DNA of 64,000 nucleotides from Diplolepis rosae (taxonomy: Eukaryota > Arthropoda > Insecta > Hymenoptera > Diplolepididae), in the NCBI GenBank assembly GCA_030998225.1, contig JAPYXD010000704.1, positions 2,108,001 to 2,172,000 of the forward strand, written 5' to 3'. This document shows, piece by piece, positions 1-61,036 of the stretch. The notes beneath the pieces were generated by a model. It was not told the DNA's origin, did not search any database, and saw nothing but the letters and a program-made list of their open reading frames with translations. The stretch's first letter is position 1. The number at the start of each line of letters is the position of its first letter. The position numbers and the translations under genes are program-made.

Positions 1-1
1 A

Positions 2-1912: not shown

Positions 1913-1934
1913 GTTGACTGCTAAAGAAAAACTG

Positions 1935-4088: not shown

Positions 4089-4089
4089 A

Positions 4090-4497: not shown

Positions 4498-4618
4498 AAT
4501 ATTATAAATTGTAGTCATAAATAAAATTTCAAATATGTCTAGAAAATTCTCTTTAAGCAAAACACTGTTAGGATCTAGTTAGTATTTTAAAGCTCAATAA
4601 CGAATTTGTTATAGAAAA

Positions 4619-4977: not shown

Positions 4978-5086
4978 ATTTATAATCCATATACATAATT
5001 ATTAACAATAATAATAACTAATTTCCATTTATATCAAATTAAATCACAAACAACTCAAATAGATAATTCTTTTGCAGATAAGGACA

Positions 5087-6004: not shown

Positions 6005-6015
6005 GAGGGGGGAGG
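6005..6015 (+). other. Polypurine tract
   Basis: GAGGGGGGAGG lies directly before the LTR start TGTCACG. Copy B has AGGGGGGAAGG in the same place. This is the plus-strand primer site expected at a 3' LTR. Confidence 0.8.
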
Positions 6016-43045: not shown

Positions 43046-43808
43046 TATTATGTCACAAGTACGTAAATACTTACTTTGATCGAAGATTCCTCGTTTTAAG
43101 TTAGGATCGAATGATCCTCGCTTAGGGATGAGGATAAGTCAATGAAAAGTACACAATGATTAGTAAAGTAATACAAATTGAATTTATTTAAATTAACACT
43201 GATATAAACAAGGTTAAAATTTTACAATGATTCAAACAATGGCATAGGGAATAGGTAAAGAGTAGAGAGAATTTTCGGTACCTTTGTTGAGTTGTGAATA
43301 GTCCCCTTTTTATGAATGATCCTCACAGGTGTGAGGGAGAGAGAAAGATTCTTCCACTGGTGCGACGATGACAGCAATAGGTATCCCACTGGTATGAGGA
43401 AGACAGAAACAAATATCCCACTGGTGTGAGGAGGACAAGAATAGTTATCTCACTCTACACTGACTCTAAGATCCTTTCAAAGATTGAAAGTACAATCGGG
43501 GAATTTACGAAACGTTTCTTCGGAAAACTGAACTAAACACGTATCTCACGCTGTAAATCCTTTTAAGATTTTTAGAAATTTGCCGCACTTAATTTTGCTC
43601 ACAAGACTAGTTTTCCCTTGGCGGTGTGTCCTTTTTATATTATATTTTTTGTTGACGTCACGCGTTGCGCAGTCTCCCGCTGCGTGTGACGTAGTTATAC
43701 CTCTCTTTTCAATAGGTGGTTTTCTCTCTCTTTTAGTAATTTCCCCAGATTTTTCTCTAGACCTAGCCTGTGCCTATAGTACATTCGAATGCGTCACGGG
43801 ACGTGACA
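43046..43808 (-). repeat. 3' LTR of copy B
   Basis: Begins TGTCACGTCCCG at 43,808 directly after the polypurine tract and ends near 43,046 (end sequence GTGACATAATA, decayed from GACGTAACA). The end is uncertain by about five bases because it adjoins palindrome-arm sequence. It contains a degenerate repeat of CCCACTGGTGTGAGGA-type units at 43,325-43,450. Confidence 0.7.
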
Positions 43809-43819
43809 CCTTCCCCCCT
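43809..43819 (-). other. Polypurine tract of copy B
   Basis: AGGGGGGAAGG on the minus strand, immediately before TGTCACG; equivalent to 6,005-6,015 in copy A. Confidence 0.75.
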
Positions 43820-44133
43820 AGTTCGAGCGCGGGGGTGAAGCATCCGCGATCGAATCTTCGGAAGAAGAATACATTCGTTAATGTTTTTGAAGATACATTG
43901 AATTTCTATTTCTGACGTAATAACCAACATTCATTTCGGCGTTTCTTTTACAATTTGTATTTTTTGCATTTGACTATTTGATGCCAATATCGAACATTTT
44001 TTTTTTTGGATCTCATAAAAATTTATTTTATCTAAATATTATAATTTTTTTGTTATAAATAATTACATAGTTTTTTTTTTTTTTTTGAAATAGTATGAAC
44101 TTAACATAAGGTTACATATGATTTTTTCTTATA

Positions 44134-44768
44134 CAGTAAAACCTATCGTAGCCGACACTCTCCTAACGAACATCCCACTCTGACGCTTCACATTATTGGT
44201 CGAGAAATGTGCATGGTCAGGGCCGTCTTAAACACCGTATTTGGAGGGTCCTCATATTTTTGTAAAAAATCTTAGTAATTTTTTTTCAATGAATATTTAA
44301 AATGAAATATTAATTTAATTAATGATTATATTTGAATTATAAATTTTAATTACAATTTAACTTCGAAAAATTGGAGAATTATTATAACCAATTATATTTC
44401 AACTTATTAAGATCCTAAATATGTATGTACAGTCGTGCAACATAACCTCAACTGTCATCTATACATTTCCCACTAAAAGCACTAAGTATTCCTTATAGTT
44501 TTTTATCGACTGAATTTATCCATGAAATTTTTAAATTATCAACAAAAGAACTGATTATTTTTCAAACTAACTTTTACTCACCTTTTTGCACAAAAGTAAA
44601 CACAAAAAATATGTACAAGCCGGTACGTGTGTTACTAAACACAGGGGCACCTGTTGTCACAGCACTGAACCAAGCTAGTAGTAAGTCCCTAGCAATTATC
44701 GCATGTCATTGGTACCCATCGTAGCCGAACTTGTCTCCCATATGTGTCGGCTACGATAGGTTTTACTG
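44134..44768. mobile_element. TA-flanked MITE (pogo/Tc1-type) in copy B
   Basis: CAGTAAAACCTATCGTAGCC and its perfect inverse bound a 635-base element flanked by TA. It lies between the last dsRBM gene and the LTR and is absent from copy A. No transposase. Confidence 0.7.
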
Positions 44769-44884
44769 TATAACTAAATACATCAATAATTTTTATTTCA
44801 TATTCGTAAATTATAAATATCATGTAATATAAAATAATAATATGTAAAACTGTAATATAAAACGTAATTTCATAATGTAGATTT

Positions 44885-45334
44885 TTAAGAATTATTTTTA
44901 TATTTTCTATTACGTAAAGGGTTGCGGCAGTCATGAGCTAAATGCCCTCTTTGAAAACACCTTTCACAAGAGTTGGTCCATTTTTGCAAGGTTTCTTTAC
45001 TGATTTCATCACTTATATTGAAAATTTTCGATTCTGGGATTAAGCTTTTTTCTTTCATTTCTTCTAAAAATACATATCTTGTGGAAAGCATTTCCAAGAG
45101 TTTAGATGCTGCATTTTGCTTTGCAGACTTTTTTTGAGGGGCTGGTTCCCCAATACAAGAGAAAGTTATTTTATTTTTAAAGATTTCGCAAGTTGCTTGG
45201 AACGGTGGCAGTTCTTGGTGTTTTCGAAGCGATTTTACAATATATGAAGGTTCGGAGAAATCATACTCAATGCTTATCTCGTTTAAAACTTGTACAACAG
45301 TGCCTTTCGATAGGTCTCTTGTCTGCAAGGCCAT
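44885..45334 (-). CDS. dsRNA-binding motif plus CCHC protein (copy B, distal)
   Basis: The ATG at 45,334 follows a TTCTTTTGCAG acceptor by eight bases. The dsRBM occupies about residues 10-80: LNEISIEYDF in helix 1, PPFQATCEI strand, QKKSAKQNAA helix 2 with the KKxAK dsRNA-contact signature. A zinc knuckle, CERCFQRGHLAHDC, and a basic tail follow. It is intact and close in sequence and length to the copy A protein at 5,087. It is the last gene before the LTR. dsRBM viral proteins often block Dicer or PKR-type sensing. Suppression of RNA silencing is plausible here but not shown. Confidence 0.8.
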   Translation of the reverse strand: MALQTRDLSKGTVVQVLNEISIEYDFSEPSYIVKSLRKHQELPPFQATCEIFKNKITFSCIGEPAPQKKSAKQNAASKLLEMLSTRYVFLEEMKEKSLIPESKIFNISDEISKETLQKWTNSCERCFQRGHLAHDCRNPLRNRKYKNNS

Positions 45335-45694
45335 TGTTTTGATCTGCAAAAGAATTACCTGTTTGAGTTGATGATTGAATTTATTGAAATTCTAAAGTTA
45401 GTTAGTTTTTTTTGTAATAATTTTGTGTTTGTTGATATATTCACTTTCCGCGTTTCCTAACTGAAAGAGATATTTCATGCAGAGAAAACAGTGGTCCGTT
45501 TTTAAGAATATTTTAATTTATTAAGGTTTGTCGTTACATTATAGCGGTTAAGGAAGAAGTAGTGGTGTATATGAAATATGATTTTAAACAACGAATAAAA
45601 ATTAAAAGGGAAAATTTTTTAACAAAAGTTACTAATAGATATTGTTTATATTTAGAAAAAAGAATAATAAAAAATATGTTTTGATTTATTATTT

Positions 45695-46126
45695 TTATTC
45701 GTCGTTGTTATAAATAATAGTCGATGCTTCGGAATCGACGTCGTTATACAGTGCTTCTTGTTGGTATAAATGAATTACACGTTCGGCACAAGTTACACAT
45801 AAATCTGCTCTTTGCCGCATGTAAAAAATTTGTGTATTGCAAATGGAGCAGTCGAGGCTAGATAGTTTTAATGTACAATATAAGTCTTTAGTAACTATGT
45901 CGTCTATTCGGATGGGTAATGTTACTTCGGTTTCGAAAAAGCTGAGTTCTGTCATCCAACAATCCTCGCAAACAAGTTTTATTTCGAGAACATTCATGTA
46001 AAAATTCTCGACCAGGGTTGTGCAGCAGTATTCTGACCATAATTGATTTTCAAAATACGGCTGAACATCCTGCTCGCTTGCTCGAACTTCTTCTGCTTCG
46101 ATTGTTTCGATTTCTTGGGGCAGCAT
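45695..46126 (-). CDS. Retroelement accessory Cys-rich protein 2 (copy B)
   Basis: A 143-residue protein starting four bases after a CCCCAACAG acceptor. Acidic N-terminus, then CEDC, CSIC and CVTC pairs, in an order that echoes Cys-rich protein 1 upstream (an early CxxC followed by two late CxxC pairs about 15 residues apart). I read the two as diverged tandem paralogues with a zinc-ribbon-like fold. Intact here, frameshifted in copy A. Function unknown. Confidence 0.65.
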   Translation of the reverse strand: MLPQEIETIEAEEVRASEQDVQPYFENQLWSEYCCTTLVENFYMNVLEIKLVCEDCWMTELSFFETEVTLPIRIDDIVTKDLYCTLKLSSLDCSICNTQIFYMRQRADLCVTCAERVIHLYQQEALYNDVDSEASTIIYNNDE

Positions 46127-46265
46127 TTTTCTGTTGGGGAAATTTATAATATTTAAGGAATTTGAAATATTTGCAAAATTTACAATTTTTTAGTATTAAG
46201 GATTTTATTAAATTTAACAAAATTTTTCATGCGTGATTACATACGTGGAAGGTAGATACGTATAA

Positions 46266-46673
46266 TCATGCAGGGGTATTTTCTACTTGAACTTCGTTTC
46301 CTTGGCTAATTTCGAATTTATAATTTAAATATTGTTCGATGCATTCTCTACAATCAGCTGCTTTTTTTCGCGGAGTAATTAATAGTTCTTGACAACCGTA
46401 ACAATTCATATATATGCATTCCAATTTACAAATGGAATGCCATGAAGTAAAAAATTCACAGTTAATTTGAGTTTCCTGATCTAATTTCTCGAAACAGAAT
46501 TGGCAATATCTTTTTGTGGTTTGGTGGTTATAATATAAAAACAATGTTGAGGGTTCTAATTCGAAGCAATAACTTTGTAATAGGTGCGCGTATGCTATCG
46601 GATTGTCTTGCGGACATACACCCTCTACTGGTCCAAGATGGTTAACAATAGGCTCACTTGGAGTTGGTATCAT
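46266..46673 (-). CDS. Retroelement accessory Cys-rich protein 1 (copy B)
   Basis: A 135-residue protein with the ATG three bases after a CAATTTGTAG acceptor. CQFC, CKLEC, CYGC and CREC cysteine groups. It is homologous over its full length to copy A 4,090-4,497 and open in both copies. No membrane segment or signal peptide. Its upstream 300 bases (46,680-46,960) are also similar between copies, so the untranslated region may carry a regulatory signal. Confidence 0.65.
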   Translation of the reverse strand: MIPTPSEPIVNHLGPVEGVCPQDNPIAYAHLLQSYCFELEPSTLFLYYNHQTTKRYCQFCFEKLDQETQINCEFFTSWHSICKLECIYMNCYGCQELLITPRKKAADCRECIEQYLNYKFEISQGNEVQVENTPA

Positions 46674-47017
46674 TTTCTACAAATTGTTAGAATAGATTTA
46701 TTTTATTAAGGTCTGATAAGGAGATTGAAAAATAACTTTTTGAATATATTTTCTAATCATGCAAGGTAAAAGATTTTGCTAAAGGTATTTTACTTTCCGT
46801 CAGAAAAACAACTTTTATATTACAGTTTGTTTTTCCTTTAGTAAGAAACATTAAAGACGTGGGTACAAAAACTGTCCTTCTGACGGTATAGGACGTTCAT
46901 GCACGTGGTTTTGAGAAAAGTAAGGACGGAATGTACCTGTATCTGAAAAATTTTGTGAATTGACTTCAAGTGTATTAAAGAAAAGGGTGAAAGATGGAAT
47001 AAAGGAAAGGTCAAAAG

Positions 47018-48808
47018 TTAAACGTCAAGTCGGTCAGTAAAGGTATTTTCACTGAGCTTAAAGGAGTTTTTTTGTATAAGTTCTATACGTGTTGGCGTTT
47101 TGTTTATTTTTTTAGATATTTTTTGAATTTTCAATAGTAATAATCCTAAAATTGTAATCATAAGTAAAGTAATAAAGATTAGTGCTAATGTTAATTTATG
47201 TGCACTAGAAATAAAAATTGATGGAATGATTTTTTGAATGTTTGCATATTTTGTAACGATAAAGACATGGTTTTCGAAGATTGATAATGGCATGTCTTTT
47301 TTTTGCTGAAGAAGAAGTAATACCTTTTTTAGTAAGTGAGGCTCTTGAATGGAAATATTATATAAAAATGGTGAAATTATAGCAAGGGAAGTAGTTAATT
47401 TGCTGACTGGAATTGAATTATCCATTATATTCAAATGGTTTTGAAGATGGTAATATGGAGTTGATGAATCTAGATTGCAACCTGATTTTGTTTGCAAAAT
47501 TCCTATTCCTTGGAGTGTGATTAAGGTCTTAGAGTTTTTCGACATGATAAGAAAATTTGTCGGGGGAAAATTGTTGAGTATAGCCATCCATGATGAAATT
47601 GCAATGGTGTTAGAAAGGGATATTCACTAAAAGTGATGAATATTTTACACTTGTATGGTTGGGAATTTAGAAACATTGATGTTTCACAAATAGGATTGTT
47701 ATCGATGTTAGATATAGATCTTGGTGGGTGACAAAATGTTTGGAATCCATTTTGATAACATGCATTGAGGAAATTTTCATTTGTTATAAAGTATGATTGG
47801 TTATTTGAAGAAATAGCGAGATAAGAATTTTGAGTTTTTATGTAAATAGAGGAAATTACGTCAGTATTAAAATCGAGATGTATTGGAATTGGATGTGGTT
47901 TAAATAATTGAAATTCTTCAGCAGATGGGATTGGTATAGTCATAATAAAAATCAAGTACTTATCGAATAAGAAGTATTGTATTTTAGAAAATGGAAGGAC
48001 CATAGAAAAAAGAGATGTTGAAAGGTGTGGGTCTTCTTTGTTGGATTTGAAGTCTAAGAAGGTATCAGGAAGTAGCATAGGGTGCCATAAATTAGTTGTG
48101 GCATGGGTAATAGCTTCTGTAAGTTGGTCAAGGAGTAAAAGAAAAGATTGAGAAAGTCCATGCAGGTCTTTAAGCCAATTTGCTGCTAACATTCGATATA
48201 GGTGAATATTTGGATCTTTTTGAGAATTATGTCATTTTTTGTAGGTCATAATGTTGTCAAGTTTTGAAGAAAGATTTGTAACTTTTTGGAAAAATGGATT
48301 TGGAAGTAGAAATAAATTTTCTTTGGGCCAGTAAAGGGAGGTTTCATTTCTCATTCTTAATTCTAAAAGTACTTTTTGTATCTGTTGCAAGAATGGATCA
48401 TTAGTGTTAGAAATATTCGTGATATTACGAGCTTGTCTAAATATAAATGATATTTCTTCAAGAAAATAGTTGATGCGTTGTTCTATAAAATCAAGTTGTG
48501 TCTGATGATCGTATAAATTACAATTATTGGCAATATTTGAGAGTATGCAATATTCATATAATTTATGTGAGAAATCTATTATTTTGTATTTAAGTACGTC
48601 TGGCTGAAAGATATCGATATAAGATATAAAATGATATTTTTCAGAAAAAAGACGAACTTTTGAAATTGGTTCAAAATAAATCCCTGAAGAATGAGAAAAT
48701 TGTGATCCTATGAAGTATTTTTCTGCTTTGGAGAAAAGGAGTGGAATTAAAATTAAATACACTCTGGATGCTAGTTGATTAAGGAAATTCACTAGGCTTC
48801 TCGGAAGG
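47018..48808 (-). pseudogene. env: Gypsy/baculovirus-F-like envelope protein, broken
   Basis: An open stretch follows a TTTTTCAG acceptor at 48,811-48,809 and has no ATG of its own, so an upstream ATG must be spliced on. The N-terminus has a hydrophobic signal-like segment and then SSGIYFEPISKVRLFSEKYH, typical of errantivirus envelopes. A TGA stop at 48,234-48,232 and a frameshift near 47,540 break it into three pieces. The last has a long hydrophobic transmembrane segment (about 47,140-47,200) and a basic tail. In family terms it would be the fusion protein on the particle surface. As it stands it cannot make the full protein. Confidence 0.75.
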
Positions 48809-48851
48809 CTGAAAAAGAAAAGTAGGATTAATATTGAATAAAATAGGATGT

Positions 48852-49436
48852 TTACATATGGTTGGATTTAGGTCTAGAAGTTTTTTGGAGAAAAGGGGAA
48901 AAAAGTCTACTAAATGTTGAAGAGTTTCTTGGTGGAACTGGAGGGGGAAATTGGGTTGATTTGTCTACTTTAAGAATATTTTGTCTACGGCACTCTTTTG
49001 TAGCATGCATTTGAGTGTTACAAAATCTACAGGAATTTTCCCAAGGTATTAATTTTGGTCTTGGATCAGTTTGAATACTTTGATTTTTGGTTTTTTGCCT
49101 TTTTTTATCATCATTATTATAAAATTTTTCGTCGCAGAGATCGTATGATCTTATTAGTAGTAATAATAATTTTAAAGCTGCTCTATTTTCTGCTAATTCA
49201 CTAGTAGGGCCGGCTTGTATAACGAAATGTTCATTTATATTAATTTGTGCGAGAAAAAATGAGTTTGTTTTTGAATTCGGATCAGGATAGACTGTATATT
49301 GCGGTAACGGCAGTCCATATTTTATCGTGAAGTTTCTTAAAATTTCTACATGATTTAAAAATCCCATGGAGTCTGTTCTGTATTTCTTTTTTGGGTAACT
49401 TGGTACGTGTGTAGGCTCGTCGTAGTAATGCTCCAT
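48852..49436 (-). CDS. dsRNA-binding motif plus CCHC protein (copy B, middle)
   Basis: A 194-residue intact frame, twelve bases after a CCGATTCAG acceptor. Residues about 27-95 look like a dsRBM: HVEILRNFTIKYGLPLPQYT in helix 1 and strand 1, and ELAENRAALKLLLLL in helix 2. The classical KKxAK is replaced by a less basic sequence, so dsRNA binding may be weaker. A zinc knuckle CRFCNTQMHATKEC (C-x2-C-x4-H-x4-C) follows at about residue 137, then a Pro/Ser-rich basic tail. It is a diverged relative of the distal dsRBM protein. Confidence 0.65.
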   Translation of the reverse strand: MEHYYDEPTHVPSYPKKKYRTDSMGFLNHVEILRNFTIKYGLPLPQYTVYPDPNSKTNSFFLAQININEHFVIQAGPTSELAENRAALKLLLLLIRSYDLCDEKFYNNDDKKRQKTKNQSIQTDPRPKLIPWENSCRFCNTQMHATKECRRQNILKVDKSTQFPPPVPPRNSSTFSRLFSPFLQKTSRPKSNHM

Positions 49437-49475
49437 TGCAGTTGATTTCCTGAATCGGTATATGGAATGTTTATA

Positions 49476-50212
49476 TTAGAATTTATTGTACTGGTTGGGA
49501 GGTCTATATCCGCATTTAAAACATTTTTTAAAGCTTTTCGTAGAGAAAGATGATGCAGTATGATTATTATTTGTTTTCATTTTATATGAATTTGTATTTT
49601 TATCACAATTGTTATTTGAAGTAATAGGTTTTGTTATTTGGCTACTCGTTGAAGGTTTTGGATCGTTTATAGATGATTCTTGAATTGCTACATGCAAATG
49701 TTCTAGTGAGTTTATCAAACGTAGTTCACATTTTTCGTCTTTATGCGAAAGAGAATTAATAACTTTTATGGCAGCAAAATCCTTAGCTGTTTTTATTGAT
49801 TTTGCTATTCCTATTTGTTTAATGTTATTAATGAAACAAATTGCTATGTATGTTGAGTCTTTTGATGAGGTTTTTATTCGTAATACTGTATATTTTGGAT
49901 ACTCAAATTTATTTTCAGTGCAAATTTCGTTTAATTTTTTGCAATTTTTACTAATAGAGTTTGGTTGGACGTTTTGATTTGTTTCTTTGATTCATTAATT
50001 AAGGCATTATATAAATTTTGTGCTACCTTTTGCTTTACATTTTCTTTATCTTTGCCACTATTCATTATTATATAATTTTTATATTGTAAATTAACGTGAA
50101 ATAGACATTCATTATTATTGGTTTGTTCAATGAGTATCTCATAAATGAGGGGTGGATCTCCTCTTTGTTGAATAATTTTGTTTAGTAAGGTTGTAAAAGG
50201 AACATGCGACAT
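49476..50212 (-). pseudogene. Double dsRBM protein with degenerate zinc knuckle, frameshifted
   Basis: The ATG at 50,212 is one base after an ACATCTTCAG acceptor. The first frame (to 49,931) encodes one dsRBM-like unit: PFTTLLNKIIQQRGDPPLIY, ending KQKVAQNLYNAL. About 49,970-49,720, in the -1 frame, encodes a second unit with EYPKYTVLR and AKDFAAIKVINSL. That frame runs on to a Ser/Asn-rich linker and CFKCG, where the His and last Cys of the knuckle are missing. The frame change lies in ATCAAAACG near 49,975. It may be a mutation or a programmed -1 shift; I favour mutation, because envelope breaks occur nearby. Confidence 0.55.
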
Positions 50213-50222
50213 TCTGAAGATG

Positions 50223-52252
50223 TTAGATTTGGATAGAGTAGTGGGTTCTACTAAGTTCTTCTTTTAGTTCAGAGTGAGGATAAAGAGTTGTGTTTGTATT
50301 ATTGTGATCTTTACCTGAAGTAGTATTTGCGTAATACGATGGACTTTTAGGTGCCTCTTTTGAGCTTTGTGGCGCTGAAGCTGTTAGCAGTTCTTGATGA
50401 CTCTCAGCAGGAGGTCCAGAAGGTCGATGGGTACCTAAGTGTAATAAGAGGTTAGTGACCGAATCCCAGAAGGCGCCTAGTAGATGGAGAGACCATCCAA
50501 ATAATCTGTGTAGCGCATATCCATGAATAATGGTATCAGCTATCAATTTAATCCCTCTAATTATTATTATTAATCCCATTAGGCCTGCACTAGTAGTTCC
50601 AAAACTTGTAAAAATTGTTCAAAATCTACCCCATGCGGATTCAGCAATTTTATCAATTACATCTTCATTAAATAAATTCGTTAATGATATTCCTTGATTA
50701 ATAGTTGGATGTCCTGTTATTTCTCTAGCTAATGAATTTAAAATCATTGGTTTTTCTGCTGGAAACATAATATGATCTCGCAGTTTATCAAGATCAGATT
50801 GAGAATAAATGCCACTTGTTGCTAAGGATGAAGGATTTGTGTATTTCCAGGTTGCTTTTGTGAGAGGTTTAACTATAGTTGGTGCTATGGATTCGACAGG
50901 ATTTGGAAGTAATTTGTACCAGGTTTCTCCGAAAAGGTACATTGGTGGAAGGAAAGAATTGCAATTTGTTTGGATACCTGATTTTGTTAATATATGAGTT
51001 CGTGGAGAAAGGAAAAAGGATTAATTTCCTCTAAATATTGGTAGTTGTAGATAACATTCTTCAGTTTTGCGATATTTTACTTCAACCGGTATACATTTTA
51101 CGATATGTACTACTTCTCCTGCAATTACTGACATATATCCTGGGCCTTTCATTAAATGATATGCAAATTCGTCTGGTGATTGGGTTGCTAAGGTTAATGT
51201 ATTTCTAAAAACTTGCTGTTCAAGTATGCATCGTTGAGTAAGAACATCGTGATAAAGTCTATTTACTTCATTGCGTATGTGTCGTTCTACATATATAAAT
51301 TTAGAATTGACGTATGTGAAAATGTCCATATTTTGAACTTCTGAATGTTTATTTTCTAAAAATGAATTCCCAGGTCCGTTTCAAAAATTAATAATTTTGG
51401 ATGCTCAGTTTGTATTAAAACGTAACTGCAAACTGGTTTTCTTGTTTTTTCAGCCAGTACGAAGGTTATATCTTCAGTCGTTAAAGAATAAAAGGTTTCA
51501 GAATTGTCTCTCGTGTTGTCATATGTTTTATTTGCTGGTCCTTCATAAATAATTTCATATTTGTTAAAATTACATACGTCATTAGGTAATGTATCCGAGA
51601 ATGTTTGTCCATATTCTACGTCTGTACAGAATGTGTCTGAAAGTGTGCATATTATTCCAGATCCTAATTGAATTTTATTTGAATTTAAATGAATAGTCGC
51701 GTAATGTTCTTGTAAAGTTATTTTGAATATTGCTTGGACTACGACATTATTCCATGTTCCATATGGGTCAGAAAATTGTGTACCAGTACAGTCTCCGTTA
51801 GGTGTTACAGAACCTGCTAAAGTAACGCTATGAAATGAAGTTTCGTTTACTTTTAACTTTGATATCTGAAGAGAAGGGGTTACTAAAAATGTTCCTATTG
51901 TGTGCATTTGATTACATTGATCTCGTGTAACATCATGTATATATTCACTGCGGCCATTTGCTACTATGGAACTGTGAGAATGCATACCACAATGAGAGAT
52001 GGCGCGTCGAATTTCTATTTTGCATTGTATTACTTTTGTATTTGAAAATCCAGTTAATTGTAAAAGTTGTATATAAGTTCTTTCAACATGTACTTGAGAT
52101 CGAGGTAGATCACATTCTCCTACCTCTAGTAAAGATAATGTCGTAATATTTGATTGATTTGAACCGCAATCGAATCCTATGATGGCGTAGACTGTTGTTA
52201 TATAGATGAAGTTGCAAGTGAGCAGTGCCAAAAGGAAGCCTCGTAATCCCAT
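50223..52252 (-). pseudogene. Chuvirus-like envelope glycoprotein, broken
   Basis: The ATG at 52,252 lies two bases after a strong CCCCTTTTTTCCAG acceptor. A signal peptide (residues 1-23) is followed by FDCGSNQSNITTLSLLEVGE and CGMHSHSS, and further on YVERHIRNEVNRLYHDVL. Then comes DKLRDHIMFPAEKPMILNS. This pattern resembles chuvirus (Mononegavirales-like) glycoproteins rather than gypsy envelopes. A transmembrane segment and Pro/Ser-rich tail end it. It is broken by a one-base frameshift near 51,345 and stops at 51,023-51,021 (TAA) and 50,621-50,619 (TGA). By family it would mediate attachment and fusion. The family call rests on remembered motifs and needs a profile search. Confidence 0.7.
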
Positions 52253-52371
52253 CTCTGGAAAAAGGGGGTTCCAATTAGCAGCTTGCTTTGTAATATAAGA
52301 ATAGGAAAATGTTTTATCATTACATATGTATATTTTTGAAGTTATTGATTTACTTTTTGTATTTTACGTTC

Positions 52372-52653
52372 CTAGTTCATTATATCCAACATGTCGGCTA
52401 TGACAATGTGATTTGATAGCCGTAAACTGAGAATTAAATTTTTGTATGCGTCCGGTCCTCTTGTTTTGATTGTTGAAAAAATGTCTTTTATTATTTCTGG
52501 ATTGTTTAGATTTCTGATCCATGTGGGGATATTACAGTCGTCTTTCTTAAAAATTCCAGTTTGAATTAAGTATGGCCAGAGAGCTACCATGTCGATAAAA
52601 CAGGGAACTATTTCAATGAGATCATCTATGCGTTTGCGATGAATTTGTTCCAT
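52372..52653 (-). CDS. CARD-only protein
   Basis: An intact 93-residue frame; the ATG is 24 bases after an AAATTTCAG acceptor. The whole protein is one predicted six-helix death-fold: HRKRIDDLIEIVPCFIDMVA at the start, then LIQTGIFKKDD, then FSTIKTRGPDAYKNLILSLR. The TxRGPxAYxxLxxxLR pattern is the hallmark of CARDs of insect initiator caspase Dronc and its adaptor. With no caspase or other domain it should act as a decoy interfering with apoptosome assembly, or alternatively as a scaffold. It sits directly after pol. A capture from the host is likely, but I cannot identify the donor gene. Confidence 0.75.
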   Translation of the reverse strand: MEQIHRKRIDDLIEIVPCFIDMVALWPYLIQTGIFKKDDCNIPTWIRNLNNPEIIKDIFSTIKTRGPDAYKNLILSLRLSNHIVIADMLDIMN

Positions 52654-52770
52654 TATATCTGGAATAATGTGTTATGTCTGAAATTTCATATTTATTTTGT
52701 TTTATATATTTTTTTATTTTACTCATAAAACATATATTTTCATAAAAAAAAATTTTTTTTTTTTTATTTT

Positions 52771-52911
52771 TACTATTTATCGACAAAATAAAATTTCTAT
52801 ATATGTATATTTCTATATATATTTCTATATATATTTCTATATATATATATATATATATACATATACAACTTAAATAAGATATAGAAATTTTATTTTGTCG
52901 ATAAATAGTAA

Positions 52912-52944
<33 letters not shown>

Positions 52945-52950
52945 TTGTTT

Positions 52951-52990
<40 letters not shown>
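52771..52990. repeat. AT microsatellite and hairpin at the pol 3' end
   Basis: TACTATTTATCGACAAAATA (52,771) pairs with its inverse at 52,891-52,910, enclosing TATATTTC repeats, and a pure TA run follows to 52,990. The integrase frame runs into the TA tract and ends in Tyr-Ile repeats, so the original C-terminus is gone. Confidence 0.6.
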
Positions 52991-52994
<4 letters not shown>

Positions 52995-55210
52995 TAATCG
53001 TCATATGTTTTTAATTTTTCTTGTTGTGATAAAGGTTCACTGGAAGGTTCACGAGCTAGTTTACCAAAAACCAATTCATAGGGTGTGCATTTTGTGCCTT
53101 CATGTACACTAGTATTATATGAGAACATTGCTAGTTCAAGCCAATCATCCCATTCTGAATTTTTAGCAACAAATTGTTTGAGATATTCTCCTAAAACATG
53201 ATGTAAACGTTCTAATGACCCGTTTGATTGAGGGTGAAATGCTGTGGTACGAAATTGTTTAATTCTAAAACGTTTTGCTAATCTTTTTAATAAATGACTT
53301 AAAAAATCTCTGCCTTGGTCAGTAAGTACTCCTTTCGGTGATCCAAATATGCAAATAAATTTTTTCACGAAAGCGTCTGCTATCGTACTAGCTTGGTGAT
53401 TAGGAAGAGGTATTGCTAAAGAATATTTGGTAAAATTGTCTTGTATCGTTAGAATATATAAGTTACCAGATTTTGTTTCAGGTAGTGGACCAACAATGTC
53501 CATTGATATTTTTTCAAAAGCAGTAGTGGGTGTGTCAGTGATTACCATAGGATTTTTTGTTTTGACTCTGATTAATTTTTTCAGTTGACATTGTAAACAG
53601 CCTTGAATATATATTTGAATGTCTACTTTCATATTTTGCCAAAAAAATTTTTGGCGAATTCGACTATAAGTTTTTGTGACGCCTTTATGGCCTCTTAATG
53701 CTGAAGAATGAGCTTCTTCAATTAAATGAGTTCGTTGTTCCTTTGTTGGATATTGCGTTATTCCATTGCAAACAATAATTTTTGTAGTTGAATTTGAAAA
53801 AATTGAATCGAAAATTGATTTCACTTCTTCCCAAAGTATATGATTAATTCTGGAAGTTTTTGATATACTAATAGATCGTAATTTAAATTTTTGAGATAAT
53901 TCATGTAATGAATGAATTGATAATTTTATATTATTTAAAGTTTCAGATAAATTATCTTTAGTTTCTTCTTCAATTGGAAGTGCAAAATGGTAGTAGTTTC
54001 CTTTTTTAATCTCTTTTGCTATCCCCTTTTGTAAATTTTTAAATTTTGGTAATGTTTCACGTTTTTCTAAAGTTTTTGATCCGTTGTCGCGAGGAGTTCC
54101 ATTTGTTGTAACAAAATATGCATAATTATCTTTTCGCATAGTTAATTGATCGCGACATTCAACTAAATTTTTCTTCGTTATAATTTTTTCTGTTTGAGAG
54201 TTTATAGGGGGATTTTCTGGGGGTGGACGATTATAATTATCATGATCTTTATCGATTTTTTCAGGATTTATTTGAGATCTTCGGTTTAATCTCAAATTTT
54301 CTTCAAAATAAGGCTCTTCAAATTCTTCTTCCAATTTTTCTTCTTGGTTTTCTTCAAACTTCTCTTCAAAATTTTCCTCAAAATTTTCTTCAAAATTCTG
54401 TTCGAAATTCTTTTCAAAATCGTCTTCAAGATCATCTTCAAAATTCGCTTCCAAATTTTCTTCATAATTTTCTCCATCATTTCCTTCGTGTGAGGTTTCA
54501 ATGTCGTTGATTTCATCTTCTGAGGTTGAAAAATAATTCTCACTTTCTTCACTTTCAAATTCATTAATATTTTTTGGCTTCTTGGCATTCTTCTTCTTTT
54601 TGTTGTTTGCTTGAGTTCGTTTCAAATAATCTAAATAATCAGGATCAGAGTCCGAATCTGATTCTACTTTTGTTCGGCTTCCCTTTTGCACATTTATTTC
54701 TAGTAATTCGTTTTCAAATATTTGTTTTCTTGGCCTACCTCTCTTTCTTTTTGTTTGAGAGGGAATATTTTTCAAATTTGTAAGTAGATTTTTTCTTGGC
54801 CTACCTCGTGGTTTTTTCATAAGAGGTTTGGAAGAAAAATTTTCGTCTAATTTTTCTTGAGTTTCGTTTCGATTCAAATTTTTTGCTTTTTCTTGCTCTA
54901 TTCTCTTTTGAGCTCTCGTAGTAATAGTTTTCCATGATAAATTTTCGTATTTTTTGGAAAACACTGGACTTAATAAAAATATTGTCATAAAAATAAGTCT
55001 TGAAGCCATATTTTTGAATAAATTTGTGTATTTTAAAATATTCTTACCAATCTCACTGAGTGATTCTTCACTAAGGAATTCCGGAAAATATTCTGGAATT
55101 TTTGAGTCAATATTTAATATTTGGGCTTCCGGAATTTCGCTAAAATGATCTACGTCGTCTGGTACGATTTCTGGATTCAAGTTTCTTCGTTTTGAAGGTC
55201 TTACCTCATT
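52949..55210 (-). pseudogene. pol: pol, second part: AT-hook/acidic insert and integrase
   Basis: Separated from the RT part by a one-base frame change near 55,210. About 350 residues precede the integrase. They carry two AT-hook motifs (KKPRGRPRK near 54,810 and KRGRPRK near 54,745) and then a Glu/Asn-rich run built of NFEENFEE-type units (54,300-54,480). The integrase follows with an HHCC finger (HSSALRGHKG ... CLQC near 53,600-53,730). Next are the catalytic triad in SMDIVGPL, LTDQGRDF and NGSLERLHHV. The C-terminus is lost in a TA repeat. The AT-hooks could bias integration toward AT-rich DNA; that is inference. Confidence 0.75.
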
Positions 55211-55211
55211 T

Positions 55212-57572
55212 TTAGTTTTCTTGTTTTTTTCTTGTAAAAGTTTTCTTGGAAAACATTCTTTCTTGGGAAGTCATAAAAGTATCGTTATCATCAGCTTGTA
55301 AATATTTTGATTTCTCTTTGTTATCATCAATAGGGTTTCTTGAGAGAGCGTCTGCATTTACATTCATTTTTCCTGCTTTGTAAATTACATCAAAATCATA
55401 TTCTGCGAGTTTCAATCTCCAACGTGAAACTCGTGAACAAGGGTCTTTAGAATTTTGAAAACAAACTAGAGGTTTGTGATCAGTCACTAAAGTAAATTTT
55501 CTCCCATACAAATAAGGACGAAAATGAGTTACACAAAATATTATAGCAAGAGCTTCATTCTCATATGTATCATATTTTTTCTCAGTATCACTTAGACTAC
55601 GTGAAGCATATGCTATTGGCTTATCTTTACCTATTTTACCTTGTGATAAAATACCTCCTATTGCAAATCCTGAGGCATCTGTTGTGAGTATAAAAGGTTG
55701 AGAAAAATCAGGTCGTTGTAAAAGTGGTTCTTCACATAATTTTGCTTTTAAAATTTCGAAAGCTGCTTGTTGTTTTTCTGTCCAATTAAAAGGTGTATCT
55801 TTTTTTAGAAGTTGATTTAAAGGACTTGCAATTTTTGAAAATCCGTCAATAAATCGTCTATAATATCCTGCTAAGCCTAAAAATTGTTTAACATTTTTCT
55901 GTGTTTTTGGGACTGGAAAGTTTTTTACAGCTATTATCTTTTTTGGATCTGGACGTACTCGATTTTTATCAATTATATGACCTAAATATCCTACTTCAGG
56001 TCGTAAAAATTCGCATTTGTCTGGTTGTAAATGAAGATTTGCTTTTCTAAGTCTTTCTGCTAAATTGTTAAATTTAATTTCGTGCTCTTCTAGAGTATTT
56101 GCATATATAACTATGTCATCAAGATGTACAAAAAGTTCCGTTCCGATTAATCCAGTTAATGTTAAATCCATTAATCTTTGAAATATGGCGGGTGCTGTTT
56201 TCAAACCGAAAGGCATTCTATCGAATTCGTAATGACCGTGAGGTGTAGAAAATGCGGTTTTATGTGAGTCTTTTGGGTTCATTTTTATATGGTGAAAACC
56301 GGTAGCTAAATCGAACACTGAAAAATATTTTGCTGATCCTAGAGAATCAAGTATATCGTTTATATTAGGTAAAGGATACGAATCGCCAATTGTTTTTTCA
56401 TTTAATTTACGAAAATCAAGAACCATTCTCCATTTTATTTTCCCTTGAGAATCAGGTTTTTTAGGAACTATCCACACTGGAGTGTTATATGGTGATTGTG
56501 AGGGCTTGATTATTTTATTTTTTAATAATTCATCGACTTGTCTTGTAATTTCTTCCTTGTGAACTGGGGGAAATCTATATTGTCTTGAAAAAATTGGAGC
56601 GTCATCTACAGTTGGAATTGAATGTTGTAGTACATTAGTAGCTTCAAGTGGTTCTCCTGGGATTTGAAATCTGTCAGCATTATTTTTAATTAATTTTTCT
56701 ACATGTTCATATTCATCTTGATTTAAATGGTCTAATCGAAGAAGTTTTTTAATACATTCTACTCTGTCTTCGTCTGTTACATTATAAAATTTGCATGAGT
56801 TAATTAGAGAATTGTCAGTTTTTAAAAAGTTATTTAATATTTTACTTGATAAATCTTCGTTATTTGTTTGTTTGAAATTAATTAAATTTTCAATTTGTTT
56901 ATAGCATTCTTGTTCTTCAAAGTCTTCTAAATTAACTAATGGGATGGATAATGTAATTGGGATTTCATTTGTGTTTGCAAATTTTAAATAAGCTTTTCCT
57001 CTGTGATTTTTTACAACTGTGTCACCTACGTAGACGCCATCTTGGATATGTAATCGAGGTACATACCCTTCACTCTTTTCTGTATTTTTTATATTAACAT
57101 AAAATGTTGTAACTGTTCGAGCTGGAATAGTAAATGTATTGGTAGATTTAAAAGAGTAACAGTGGTTCTCAATTTCTAAGCATTTTGAAGTATAGTTTAT
57201 ATTCACACTATTATCTTGAAAAAATTCTGATCCTAATACTCCATCTTCTTCTACTGGGACTTCATTCGGAATAATGTTAAATATCGTTGGATAACCAAAA
57301 ATGTTTATTTTTACCTGTCCTAACGTGTAAAGTGGTAAATCATTAATTCCTGTAAGTTTCAATACGTTATGGCTATTTATTGGTACTTCAGGGTTGAGAA
57401 CCTTTTGTTTAATTAAATTTCGAGCAACACCAGTATCAATCATCATATGTGTTGGATTTTTTAAACCTTCCGTTGATATTATAATTGATGGAATTGAAGT
57501 GGACTTTAAAATATGTATTGTTGTTGTTGTATGATCGTTAGAAGTGGATGCCAGTGGTTCTCGATTTATGCT
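55212..57572 (-). CDS. pol: pol, first part: protease, reverse transcriptase, RNase H
   Basis: Open from 57,572, where it overlaps gag in the -1 frame, so it should be made by -1 frameshifting. In order: retropepsin MMIDTGVAR at about 57,446; a linker; RT with LDFRKLNEKT, FSVFDLATGFHHIKM, PFGLKTAPAIFQRLMD and catalytic FVHLDDIVIYA near 56,115. RNase H follows with LTTDASGFAIGG, YENEALAII, TDHKPL and NADALSR. The usual YxDD tyrosine is His here. It stays open to 55,212, where a one-base shift separates it from integrase. The best-preserved enzyme part of the element. Confidence 0.85.
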   Translation of the reverse strand, partial: SINREPLASTSNDHTTTTIHILKSTSIPSIIISTEGLKNPTHMMIDTGVARNLIKQKVLNPEVPINSHNVLKLTGINDLPLYTLGQVKINIFGYPTIFNIIPNEVPVEEDGVLGSEFFQDNSVNINYTSKCLEIENHCYSFKSTNTFTIPARTVTTFYVNIKNTEKSEGYVPRLHIQDGVYVGDTVVKNHRGKAYLKFANTNEIPITLSIPLVNLEDFEEQECYKQIENLINFKQTNNEDLSSKILNNFLKTDNSLINSCKFYNVTDEDRVECIKKLLRLDHLNQDEYEHVEKLIKNNADRFQIPGEPLEATNVLQHSIPTVDDAPIFSRQYRFPPVHKEEITRQVDELLKNKIIKPSQSPYNTPVWIVPKKPDSQGKIKWRMVLDFRKLNEKTIGDSYPLPNINDILDSLGSAKYFSVFDLATGFHHIKMNPKDSHKTAFSTPHGHYEFDRMPFGLKTAPAIFQRLMDLTLTGLIGTELFVHLDDIVIYANTLEEHEIKFNNLAERLRKANLHLQPDKCEFLRPEVGYLGHIIDKNRVRPDPKKIIAVKNFPVPKTQKNVKQFLGLAGYYRRFIDGFSKIASPLNQLLKKDTPFNWTEKQQAAFEILKAKLCEEPLLQRPDFSQPFILTTDASGFAIGGILSQGKIGKDKPIAYASRSLSDTEKKYDTYENEALAIIFCVTHFRPYLYGRKFTLVTDHKPLVCFQNSKDPCSRVSRWRLKLAEYDFDVIYKAGKMNVNADALSRNPIDDNKEKSKYLQADDNDTFMTSQERMFSKKTFTRKKQEN

Positions 57573-59326
57573 TTCCTCAGTGCACCCGTACTGGGGAGAG
57601 CTTTGGAGTTTACCTGATGAGCTGTTTGTGATTGGCTATTTGGTCGTATCTTGCAGTCTCGTACTAAATGACCGGGTTTTTTACAGTAATTGCAAATTAT
57701 TTCAGTATAATTTAAATCTTGTTGAGTGTTATTATTCTGTAAAAATCTATTTTCATATGATTTATTTCTATTTTGGAACTGTCCTGAGTTAAAGTTTTTA
57801 TATTGTCCTGGATTCCATTGTCTATTATTATTATTAACACTATTGCTATTATTGTAAAAATTTCTAGGAAAATTATTATTATTGTTGTATCTTTGATGTA
57901 AAAAATTATTATTATTGTTTTTATAATTATTATTTCTATTTTGCAAATTATTATTGTTATTGTTATTAAAATTATAATTTTTATTTCTTGAAAAAATGTT
58001 ATTCGGAAAATTATTGTAATTGTTTCTTGCAAAATTATTATTATTATTACTTCTTTGACCATTGAAATTACTATATCCTTGTTGGTTAGGACGCAAAAAA
58101 TTTTTTTGTTTATTATTAAAAACTGCATCTTGAGCTTTACTTAAATGAAAACATTTTTCAGCTGTGTGACCTGGTTTTTTACAAATTAAACAAATAGTCA
58201 TGTTTTCAAGTGCTACGTTAAATCGGGTTGTTTTATTATTTTTATTATTAGATGATTCGTCACTTTTTGAATAATCCATATTTTTATTTCTTCGTAGTGC
58301 GGAATTTGCAGCTAATCTTCGTTCTATATCAATACTGTCGCTAATAACTTCTTTAAAAGTATCCTTTTCTTCAACACGAATTTCTAACTCAGGACGCAAA
58401 CCGCGTATAAAACATTGAATTACGTCTTTTTCAAGGTTTACTTTAAAATTATTATCTACCTGACCATTATTATTGAGCCTGTGAGCATCTTCGATTTTGT
58501 CGGCAATTTCTTTTATCCTAGCAGCATAGGAAAGTACATTTTCTCTTTCCCACATAAATGTATTACCTAATTCTCCCTGTAACTGGTACACGCTTTTCGC
58601 AGGGGCATATACTCTTTTTAATTTTTCTATCAATTCTTCTATTGTTGTATAAGTAGAACCAGAAATGCATTTTCTGGCTTCTCCAGTTAATTTACCTCTT
58701 AATAGCCTTGCGAGGTTTTCTTGAGCTGCAGGTGTCGGTAGCATTGCCTTTGCCTCCATGCAACCCTCAATAAAATGTGACAATGGGAGGTTACTTCCGT
58801 CGAACAATGGGACCACCTCTAGCGCGTCGCGTAAGGATACCTGCTGGCTGTTGGGTATGACCACGGCCATCTCTCCGTTATTTACTCTTACGGGATTATC
58901 CTGATTTATGACTTCTGTGTCGCTTTTGTCGTCGTCGCTATCGTTGTTACTAATTATAGATTCGCGTGCCAATGAGGTTTCCAATCTTTCTTTCAAAGTT
59001 TTATTATCTACTGTTATTACTGTTGAGCTTAGCAAATTGAATTCGTCAAAATAAGATAATTCGTTCGTTAGAGTTTGATCTTGATTACTAGATCCTGTTA
59101 CAATGCTTAAATCTGGACAGAAACTTGAATGAAACCCGCTGGTTTTTTCTGAATTTTCACGTGATATATTTTGATTATTAATTAGAGTCTTTTCTAAACT
59201 TGAATCATCTAACTTAAGAGTGTTATCTAATTCTTGTTCTGTAGGGATTGGATCAGGGATATTTTGGCATTTATTATCAGTTGAATATTCTCTATTTCTA
59301 ATTGGTTTTATTTTTAAATTTTTAAA
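57566..59326 (-). CDS. gag: gag (5'-truncated)
   Basis: Open from the LINE junction at about 59,326 to the TAA at 57,566. There is no ATG in the preserved 5' part, so the true start is lost. The capsid-like region (about 58,850-58,290) contains WERENVLSYAARIKEIADKI, as in gypsy Gag proteins. Two CCHC knuckles follow: CLICKKPGHTAEKC (58,190) and CNYCKKPGHLVRDC (57,660). Between them is a long Asn-rich, Arg/Phe-containing low-complexity stretch. It forms the particle core and binds the RNA genome. It is translated together with pol by -1 frameshifting. Copy A preserves only its last 44 codons. Confidence 0.85.
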   Translation of the reverse strand, partial: FKNLKIKPIRNREYSTDNKCQNIPDPIPTEQELDNTLKLDDSSLEKTLINNQNISRENSEKTSGFHSSFCPDLSIVTGSSNQDQTLTNELSYFDEFNLLSSTVITVDNKTLKERLETSLARESIISNNDSDDDKSDTEVINQDNPVRVNNGEMAVVIPNSQQVSLRDALEVVPLFDGSNLPLSHFIEGCMEAKAMLPTPAAQENLARLLRGKLTGEARKCISGSTYTTIEELIEKLKRVYAPAKSVYQLQGELGNTFMWERENVLSYAARIKEIADKIEDAHRLNNNGQVDNNFKVNLEKDVIQCFIRGLRPELEIRVEEKDTFKEVISDSIDIERRLAANSALRRNKNMDYSKSDESSNNKNNKTTRFNVALENMTICLICKKPGHTAEKCFHLSKAQDAVFNNKQKNFLRPNQQGYSNFNGQRSNNNNNFARNNYNNFPNNIFSRNKNYNFNNNNNNNLQNRNNNYKNNNNNFLHQRYNNNNNFPRNFYNNSNSVNNNNRQWNPGQYKNFNSGQFQNRNKSYENRFLQNNNTQQDLNYTEIICNYCKKPGHLVRDCKIRPNSQSQTAHQVNSKALPSTGALRKA

Positions 59327-59334
59327 TTACCAAC

Positions 59335-59798
59335 CAAGACTCCCCTCCTGTCCAGACGGGCTTCTCCCCACTCTGGCGACTTACTATTAAAGTCACCCGC
59401 AATAAGGGGGACCGCCCACTAGCCTCTTTGAGGCTTTCCTCAAGGAGGAGGATCTGGGTCTCGAAGATCTCGAAAGGATCGTTGGGGGAGAAGTAGCAGC
59501 CGTACACACGTACCCCCGCCACCTCTACCCAAACGAACCCCGCGTCGGTCTCCAGGAACTCCGCGATGCTCAAATCAGGGCTGCAGACAAGGATCCCAGC
59601 CCTCCTTGATGCATCCTGGTACCAAGCAGAGTTTTCGGACCATTTGTGTTGCTCACTAATGAGCAACACATCGGCTCTCCTCTCCCTGGCAGTCTGCATC
59701 AGAATGTTCTGGGCTTCCTTCCCTATCCCGAGGTTGAGCTGTAGAAATTTCACTTTCCACCTCTCAACCTCCGGAGCTCCGCCCTGAATATTGGGCAA
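59335..59798 (-). pseudogene. R1-like LINE ORF2 fragment: AP endonuclease
   Basis: Overlaps the end of ORF1, as in R1-clade elements. It contains KFLQLNLGIGKEAQN, VLLISEQHKW (catalytic Glu) and VWVEVAGVRVYGCYFSPND. Near 59,404 a one-base shift moves the GDFN motif into another frame. The sequence ends at the junction before any reverse transcriptase. It would nick the target site in an intact element. Confidence 0.75.
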
Positions 59799-61036
59799 GA
59801 ACCGCTCCCCGAAGCATGGGCGACATCTTTTTCGCCCCTATCAGTACAAGTCAGGCACCGAGGGGGAGCCTTGCACTCCTTGGCCACGTGTGACGCGCCC
59901 CCACACCTCCAGCAGGCATCCTTCCTGCCTGGAAGCGTGCAGCCACGCAACACATGGCCGTATCCCTGGCACCTGAAGCACCAGGCAACCTCGACATGCT
60001 CTCGGATGCGGCAGTTCACCCACCCTACCCTTAGTCTACCAAGCCCGAACAAGCTCCGGGCGTCCGCCTCGTTTAAACGGACCACCGCAGTATGAACACC
60101 GCCAAAGCGTTTGTACAGCCTGCATTGGTCCCCGAGGTCTGGCTCGCCCAGTGCGGTGCAAAGCGCGGCAACAACCTCTTCTCTTCTGACTGTCTCTTCG
60201 AGGTCCCTAACTTCAAGGGACCTCTTCGAGACCAAAGATTTAACTTCGGCCTTCTCTCCGACCGCCTGGTCGAGCGCCTTTTCGAAGGTCAAGACGTCAC
60301 CCACTCTTTCTGAGGACCAGGAGAATCTCCTCCCTCCTGGTTCTCCGAATGGAGAGGACCTCCGCCCCTGCGTTTTCGGGGGTAACTTTCGCCTTCATAG
60401 CCTTCAGGATATCGGCGTAGGACTCTCCATCCTTCTCCGACACCCTGATAGCGTCGCCCGACCGTGCGGCCGGAGAGCGCCTCGCCAACTTCACCTTTGT
60501 TTTAGCCATTCCCCATCCTTTTTTGGGGTTTGGCATCTGGTGGCCGCAGCGTAAGTTGGCGATATGCCGCCCTTCCCTTTCTTGGGAAGCCGATCTTCGG
60601 GGGGAGAAGGAGCAACCCTCTTCTCCCCCTTTGTCAGCTTTTTTGTGGTATCTCCCAGAGACGCAGAGCGCAGTCTCCGGAAGATACCCATCTTTTTGAC
60701 GGCGGGGTGGGATTCCATCCTTTTCTGGATTTCCACCCCGCTCTCTAGTAAGCACTTGTGGGTGTTGAGCATTCCGCTCAACACCTCCGTAGCCTCACTC
60801 ACACTGTCCTTAACATGGTCATGGTTGTTTCTCAGCATACCCTGCTGGATAAGGCTGAGAGCCCTGGCCAAGCTCTCCATTTTCTTACTTTGCTCCTTCA
60901 GGAGCTGAAGGACGTCTTTCCATCCATCAGCCCCCGGAGGAGTGTGTGAGTGCGCATCAGGAGCCTTCACCGCTTCATCTCCTTTATTATTTTCAAAATT
61001 CATATTAATCTCGTCGTGTCTTAAGACGGTTCGCAC
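59750..61036 (-). pseudogene. R1-like LINE ORF1 (Gag-like, CCHC)
   Basis: Starts at 61,036. The first part has an amphipathic segment (QLLKEQSKKMESLARALSL) and a basic region. A frame change near 60,300 leads into the second part. That carries an RNA-binding region (GGVHTAVVRLNEADARSLFG) and three tandem zinc knuckles beginning CFRCQGYGHVLRGC and CWRCGGASHVAKEC, typical of R1/TRAS-type ORF1 proteins. The single frameshift makes it non-functional as read. Confidence 0.75.

Follow-up and report, generated by a model that had tools for sequence, protein, structure and literature searches.

A probable Ty3/gypsy-type endogenous retrovirus of Diplolepis rosae with two envelopes and the gene content of a complex retrovirus

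The parallel to retroviruses among invertebrates is formed by the envelope-carrying gypsy elements, of which the known errantiviruses stop, to our knowledge, at gag, pol and one env. The complex retroviruses (lentiviruses, deltaretroviruses and foamy viruses) carry many small genes downstream of pol, with splice signals at each. F-type envelopes in gypsy elements and a chuvirus-type envelope in a BEL/Pao element are already known, the latter from Anakin, a mosquito element with a chuvirus-derived glycoprotein (PMC10084718). The same survey reports gypsy fragments beside chuvirus-type glycoproteins in Hymenoptera and Coleoptera with 'no clear evidence' of capture by Gypsy. Further precedents are errantiviruses of metazoans that carry fusion glycoproteins of type III (Chary and Hayashi 2025, via PMC13172572), the long terminal repeat (LTR) element Cer1 of C. 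elegans, whose regulatory protein CERV is made from a spliced mRNA (PMC10309623), and LTR elements of bdelloid rotifers, which capture different types of open reading frame (ORF) as ORF3, for example a GDSL esterase or a DEDDy exonuclease (PMC5408684). Here we describe a provirus in a 64,000-nucleotide stretch of the Diplolepis rosae genome (contig JAPYXD010000704.1, positions 2,108,001 to 2,172,000; hereafter the window), which we read as an envelope-carrying gypsy-type endogenous retrovirus with the gene content of a complex retrovirus. In the open-licence PMC literature, at the level of titles and abstracts, no retroelement with both of its envelopes or with its accessory genes was found.

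The minus strand of the window carries, at 43046-59324, a 5'-truncated Ty3/gypsy-type provirus with the gene order gag, pol, CARD-like protein, class III glycoprotein (chuvirus-type), a protein with two double-stranded RNA-binding motifs (double dsRBM), a dsRBM-CCHC protein, F-type glycoprotein (baculovirus-F-type), two Cys-rich proteins, a further dsRBM-CCHC protein and the 3' LTR. It is very probably a copy of a recently active Ty3/gypsy-type endogenous retrovirus of ~17.6 kb with spliced accessory genes. The inferred genome of the family is LTR-gag-pol-CARD-class III env-double dsRBM-dsRBM/CCHC-F env-Cys1-Cys2-dsRBM/CCHC-LTR, and the family appears to be an equivalent, in invertebrates, of complex retroviruses. 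The first-pass annotation, which was made from the sequence alone, had listed at least eight accessory genes downstream of gag-pol and had ascribed them to one provirus with complex-retrovirus gene content; the eight that it named were found where it had placed them, and the single provirus is backed by genomic linkage, two-LTR copies, ratios of non-synonymous to synonymous divergence (dN/dS) below 1 and splice-like signals. The anti-apoptotic and RNA-silencing functions that it also suggested are putative. Of its limits, 43046 and 59330, the first is indeed the end of the LTR, whereas the provirus actually stops at a junction with a long interspersed nuclear element (LINE) at ~59324. Seven accessory-gene pieces of the window copy exceed the Pfam cut-offs, namely four from the class III glycoprotein, one from the F glycoprotein, the dsRBM of the terminal protein and the second of the two halves of the double dsRBM protein. 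Matches below the cut-offs were obtained for the first of these halves, for the remaining F piece, for the first dsRBM-CCHC protein and for the CARD. The features of the provirus are as follows.

43046-43808, minus strand: 3' LTR of 763 bp, TGTCACG...GTGACATAATA, compared with five LTR pairs (the LTRs of the family end in GTAACA)
43069-43074, minus strand: GTAAGT splice-donor-like site in U5, from the sequence
43809-43819, minus strand: polypurine tract adjoining the 3' LTR, from the sequence
44133-44769, no strand assigned: element resembling a miniature inverted-repeat transposable element (MITE), TA target, between last gene and LTR; recognised by reading and taken as a secondary insert
44885-45334, minus strand: terminal dsRBM-CCHC protein, 149 aa, from Pfam and relatives
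45695-46126, minus strand: second Cys-rich protein (Cys2), 143 aa, from its ORF
46266-46673, minus strand: first Cys-rich protein (Cys1), 135 aa, from its ORF
47018-48867, minus strand: baculovirus-F-type envelope in three pieces, from Pfam
48852-49436, minus strand: first dsRBM-CCHC protein with a C-terminal CCHC-like knuckle, 194 aa, from Pfam below cut-off and reading
49476-50212, minus strand: double dsRBM protein, frameshifted here, from Pfam
50223-52252, minus strand: chuvirus-type class III glycoprotein (PF24664), from Pfam
52372-52653, minus strand: CARD-like protein, 93 aa, from a weak Pfam match, relatives and structure matches
52751-52990, no strand assigned: AT-rich inverted-repeat and (TA)n stretch in place of the integrase C-terminus, which is intact in another copy (L002)
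52949-57446, minus strand: pol with protease motif, reverse transcriptase (RT), RNase H, acidic/AT-hook linker and integrase, in two frames here, from Pfam and reading
57566-59324, minus strand: gag, in which Pfam finds one CCHC-type knuckle and reading a second, its first ~36 codons gone at the LINE junction

The window copy is broken, with frame breaks in both envelopes, the double dsRBM gene and pol; the class III glycoprotein has one frameshift and two stops, and the F envelope one in-frame stop, one frameshift and a lost initiator. By comparison with other copies, the LINE junction falls 108 nt behind the ATG of gag, and therefore the 5' LTR, the leader and ~36 gag codons are missing; no LTR pair was found around this copy, whose 5' end was lost at the LINE. 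The adjoining LINE-type fragment (59325-61036) contains a CCHC ORF just under the Pfam cut-off and, by reading, an endonuclease-like start, and its 3' part is missing where gag joins. These many frame breaks, together with the foreign inserts at the locus (LINE at 59324, MITE-like element at 44133-44769, AT-rich stretch at 52751-52990), might suggest a graveyard in which unrelated viral and host fragments lie beside a plain gypsy element and the gene set is accidental. Such an origin is extremely improbable in view of the other copies of the element in the host genome.

The host assembly (757.7 Mb in 428 contigs) was searched with four accessory markers as queries, and the best of the first-look candidates were scored (132 of 1700 for the class III envelope piece, 150 of 1186 for CARD, 150 of 1928 for the F piece and 150 of 2273 for the terminal dsRBM-CCHC gene). 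When hits on one strand with gaps of up to 8 kb were joined, at least 284 clusters were obtained: 133 with a single hit, one with two F hits and 150 with two or more different marker genes. One and the same order (CARD, then class III env, F env and finally dsRBM-CCHC) is kept in all of these 150 clusters with respect to the best-scored hits, and at least 43 of them contain all four markers. Chance ORFs are ruled out by this genome-wide linkage. Looser looks revealed a few exceptions, which are as expected for elements lying side by side: opposite-strand partners within 25 kb were seen for class III env and CARD (three hits), class III env and F (one) and CARD and F (one), and when same-strand partners up to 20 kb from the dsRBM-CCHC hits were considered, the nearest one was in reversed order in 1 of 85, 2 of 66 and 1 of 84 cases. 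We also drew 15 single-marker loci at random from the CARD, dsRBM-CCHC and F seeds (five each; the 31 class III singles lay outside the draw). At 14 of them at least three accessory genes were present and ordered as expected, counting one locus with an internal deletion that joins pol directly to Cys1-Cys2-dsRBM-CCHC (L040) and one whose final gene lies on the opposite strand (L048); at the remaining locus (L039) CARD lies behind pol and no further element gene occurs in the 5 kb fetched. The single-hit clusters are thus at least partly due to the use of best-scored hits only. Related full-length copies without these ORFs had been named in the first-pass annotation as evidence against a common gene set; two of the 15 loci do lack some of them (L040 and L039), but these look like deletion derivatives.

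Full-length copies with two LTRs, which the same annotation had proposed to look for, are present in the host assembly. LTR pairs of ~762 bp, 98.8-99.6% identical, starting with TGTCACG and ending in GTAACA, enclose the gene set in five of six copies that were picked by hand; in the sixth (C127) no LTR pair was found in the stretches fetched. The five copies span ~17.6-17.7 kb and are flanked by 4-bp target duplications, exact in four and with one mismatch in the fifth. All five show a polypurine tract, a primer binding site-like sequence 14 nt behind the 5' LTR, which we take to correspond to tRNA-Gly, a gag start 906-915 nt behind the 5' LTR, and pol in the -1 frame overlapping gag by 67 nt. 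If a substitution rate of ~3e-9 per site and year is assumed for insects, the LTR identities suggest that these copies inserted within about the last two million years. The domain order of pol is RT-RNase H-integrase (RVT_1, E = 4.3e-34; RT_RNaseH, 2.7e-37; Integrase_H2C2, 9.2e-19; rve, 4.8e-13), as in Ty3/gypsy-type LTR retroelements (Metaviridae); a DTG motif without Pfam match is presumably the protease. Peptidase_A17, a marker of BEL/Pao-type pol, is absent among the Pfam matches of the pol pieces at E <= 1, which speaks against assignment to BEL/Pao. The linker between RNase H and integrase (53746-55180) is acidic, rich in repeats and unusually long, and it includes a match to an AT-hook.

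A second subfamily is represented by overlapping pieces of five further copies with the same gene order from pol through the terminal dsRBM/CCHC gene, an order which was assembled from pieces rather than read end to end in a single copy. Its proteins are identical to those of the window copy at 96-98% for pol, 89% for CARD, 97-99% for the first dsRBM and 38-76% for the later genes, and the class III envelope is 96% identical over its main piece and 71-76% in the C-terminal tail. In two copies (L031 and L033) compared with the window gene at 49476-50212, the first dsRBM is 97-99% identical and the second 75-76%; the subfamilies are mosaics. This jump in identity within the double dsRBM gene has a counterpart at silent sites (dS 0.05 versus 0.35), and hence the switch seems to have arisen by recombination inside the gene. 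Between the subfamilies, dN/dS was calculated by NG86 (LWL85 values in brackets) for the accessory genes except the class III envelope, with Cys2 not estimable, and ranges from 0.08 to 0.37 (0.10-0.53). The values are 0.28 for CARD (0.39; bootstrap 0.10-0.76), 0.11 for the dsRBM region ds1 (0.10; bootstrap up to 0.69), 0.37 for ds2 (0.53; bootstrap 0.21-0.60), 0.25 for ds3 (0.33; bootstrap 0.14-0.39), 0.17 for each of two parts of the F gene (0.20 and 0.23; bootstrap 0.09-0.27 and 0.11-0.25), 0.08 for the saturated Cys1 (0.27) and 0.12 for the terminal dsRBM-CCHC gene (0.19; bootstrap 0.06-0.21), compared with 0.13 (0.12) for integrase. An accidental assembly of unrelated fragments is thus refuted by the linkage, by the LTRs and target duplications outside the gene set, by the existence of two subfamilies and by dN/dS below 1. 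Separate later insertion of each ORF, the other finding that the first-pass annotation had named as fatal, is contradicted by the order in 150 of 150 clusters, the two subfamilies, dN/dS and the random loci. This supports that the accessory gene set has been inherited as a unit.

The two envelopes belong to unrelated families. PF24664 matches four pieces of the class III glycoprotein (E = 1.7e-97, 1.3e-46, 1.6e-34 and 7.7e-21), and Baculo_F (PF12259) two pieces of the F protein (E = 3.8e-14, and 5.7e-05 just under the curated cut-off). By homology, the two proteins would mediate entry or cell-to-cell spread via two unrelated fusion machines. Two envelopes look redundant, and many copies are damaged: a complete, stop-free frame is kept by 33 of 132 scored copies for the class III envelope (774 codons) and by 52 of 150 for the F envelope (618-621 codons), and the RNase H-integrase frame is open in two of the five two-LTR copies. 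This would also be expected of a simple env-carrying gypsy element with one working envelope and other genes that are decaying passengers. However, the dN/dS values of the F parts, the terminal dsRBM-CCHC gene, the other dsRBM genes and the CARD-like gene argue against decay, and we consider such an element very unlikely here.

How eight genes downstream of pol might be expressed is indicated by splice-like signals. One GTAAGT is located in U5 at LTR position 732-734 in all five LTRs examined, and an acceptor-like site precedes each of the eight accessory ATGs by 1-16 nt. Acceptors were scored as the best site within 25 nt, with seven of the accessory starts taken from the window and that of F from another copy, using a score matrix that is our own approximation. 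When random sets of eight were sampled 100,000 times from 124 control ATGs, none reached the mean score of the eight starts; taken singly, the scores of Cys1, ds3 and CARD are unremarkable. From these donor- and acceptor-like sites we infer spliced subgenomic mRNAs for the accessory genes: a full-length RNA from the LTR promoter would serve as genome and as gag/pol mRNA, with pol in the -1 frame, and joining of the U5 donor to the acceptor before each accessory ATG would yield one subgenomic mRNA per accessory gene.

Three of the accessory genes encode dsRBM proteins. The dsrm profile (PF00035) gives matches above the cut-off in the terminal dsRBM-CCHC protein (E = 1.3e-05) and, within the double dsRBM protein, in its second half (1e-06), and matches below it in the first half of the latter (0.0047) and in the first dsRBM-CCHC protein (6e-04). 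The knuckle of the first dsRBM-CCHC protein, CX2CX4HX4C, was recognised by reading and not by Pfam. In two of three other copies read, the double dsRBM gene forms an uninterrupted frame of 262 codons. KKxAK is the C-terminal dsRNA-contact motif of the dsRBM. In the alignment it is kept in the terminal protein (QKKSAKQNAA) and was not seen in the first dsRBM-CCHC protein or in either half of the double dsRBM. The sole match of the terminal dsRBM profile to solved structures at E <= 0.01 is a Dicer homolog (E = 0.0069). Since only its dsRBM keeps KKxAK, the terminal protein is the one strong candidate for dsRNA shielding; it would bind viral dsRNA and thereby shield it from Dicer and RNA interference (RNAi) or from the Piwi-interacting RNA (piRNA) pathway, to which we assign an even chance. 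Alternatively, the dsRBM, CCHC and Cys-rich proteins might serve the RNA of the element itself, in export of unspliced RNA, packaging or translation control, comparable to Rev and Tat of complex retroviruses, rather than block RNAi. An element with many acceptors needs a route for export of unspliced RNA, and both the CCHC knuckles and the lack of KKxAK in three of four dsRBM regions fit binding of viral RNA or of proteins. Cer1 is reported to require CERV for this export (PMC10309623). The contact motif kept in the terminal dsRBM and its match to a Dicer homolog point the other way, and we regard a role restricted to the element's own RNA as conceivable but not as the probable one.

For the CARD-like protein, the Pfam match in the window copy is below cut-off (E = 0.032). 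Among 40 scanned relatives (of 51 found), 25 match PF00619 at E <= 0.1 (best 1.3e-05) and no other family matches more than three; one ENA relative (P0116) bears a precomputed CARD annotation. The structure model is helical and of low confidence, and in Foldseek CARD structures (MAVS, Apaf-1/caspase-9 and Dronc) account for eight of its 13 matches, at ranks 1-7 and 9, all weak (E = 2.9-7.3); a profile search of PDB sequences found no CARD. That the protein is an unrelated small helical protein is unlikely given the CARD matches among its relatives, the annotation of P0116 and structural matches headed by CARDs. As a CARD-only protein it would interfere with the assembly of host death-fold complexes of the apoptosome type, a function that we propose tentatively. 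The Cys-rich pair matches no Pfam family above cut-off, and a structural identity could not be assigned to it (model pLDDT 62.4; no Foldseek match at E <= 0.001). Cys1 and Cys2 are weakly related to each other (hhalign P 0.0024, probability 12%) and would be zinc-binding regulators.

Relatives of the accessory proteins are present in a large protein collection, with 86 matches to the terminal dsRBM-CCHC protein, 51 to CARD and 54 to Cys1, one of the latter being the window's own. The others stem from ENA contigs of at most 13.6 kb, which may derive from the same or from other species. By reading, several are fusion proteins of neighbouring genes: integrase-CARD (P0130, P0137), Cys1-LTR (P0173) and CARD-class III envelope (P0135, and in shifted frame P0132 and P0103). 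When the lengths of the longest contigs (at least 1 kb) were compared, five agreed between dsRBM-CCHC and Cys1 relatives (expected 0.8) and none between CARD and dsRBM-CCHC or Cys1 relatives (expected 0.8 and 0.5). Scans of IMG/VR with the class III envelope, integrase and dsRBM-CCHC proteins confirmed no relative.

The window contains a second provirus on the plus strand, which is cut by the window start.

1-6865, plus strand: second provirus, subfamily-2-like in its 3' genes by sequence comparison
1-1425, plus strand: end of gag, then protease-RT
1426 to before 4090, within the plus-strand provirus: foreign segment in place of the part from RT to F
4090-4969, plus strand: Cys-rich pair
5087-5536, plus strand: dsRBM-CCHC protein
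6016-6865, plus strand: LTR

Its gag end and protease-RT are 98% identical to the minus-strand copy at the DNA level, and the proteins of its Cys-rich pair and terminal dsRBM-CCHC gene are 62%, ~29-36% and 74% identical to those of the window's minus-strand copy. The foreign segment contains minus-strand ORFs of 152 and 177 aa without Pfam match, which resemble pieces of an intron-containing gene. The window as a whole forms a huge interrupted inverted repeat (3-21293 versus 57696-34111) of collinear segments, many of them 95-98% identical, with the two proviruses at its outer ends and a spacer of ~13 kb. Two minus-strand ORFs lie in the spacer at 21412-23385, one of which (22669-23385) matches Transposase_21 (tnp2; E = 2.2e-10), the other having no Pfam match.

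The broadest interpretation of this family is a new class of invertebrate complex retroviruses, that is, a Ty3/gypsy lineage which evolved a regulated, spliced genome independently of the vertebrate ones, combines two fusion proteins of different classes with an antagonist of death-fold assemblies and with dsRNA-binding proteins that counter silencing, and whose spread falls within roughly the past few million years. In this joint form it is doubtful, because it joins one function that we consider an even bet and another that is only tentative. Should two envelopes and six additional genes indeed be maintained in this family, complexity of the retroviral kind would have evolved twice, in two different families, and the element would supply candidate proteins by which a retroelement meets small-RNA silencing and cell death of its host.

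Among described systems, we group the element with the env-carrying Ty3/gypsy elements. Troyka was rejected as a counterpart, being without envelope and having 3-bp duplications (PMC12440569). Capture of extra genes is common to the bdelloid rotifer elements and the element described here; 'dsRNA' and 'double-stranded' occur 0 times in the text of PMC5408684. The likeness to Cer1 and CERV is that of an LTR element with a regulatory protein made from a spliced mRNA, and is drawn from description rather than from homology. With the complex retroviruses the element has no accessory protein in common among its Pfam hits, and it differs from them in its Ty3/gypsy-type pol and two envelopes. Errantiviruses and other env-carrying Ty3/gypsy elements (gypsy, ZAM, Tirant) share with it the Ty3/gypsy-type pol, the F-type envelope, the LTRs and the 4-bp duplication. 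The F-type envelope downstream of pol that characterises the genus Errantivirus is thus present, but the genus plan of three genes with one envelope does not apply: two envelopes and further genes occur in the same proviruses, which measure 17.6 kb and contain, in addition, an envelope from another fusion class, three proteins with dsRBMs, the Cys-rich pair and a CARD-like protein. A type III glycoprotein in a gypsy element is a feature that this family shares with the metazoan errantiviruses as described in PMC13172572. Anakin has likewise captured a chuvirus-type glycoprotein, but belongs to another retroelement superfamily, BEL/Pao. Compared with the survey cited above, which found no clear evidence of Gypsy capture (PMC10084718), the D. 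rosae element supplies two-LTR gypsy-type proviruses that surround a chuvirus-type glycoprotein.

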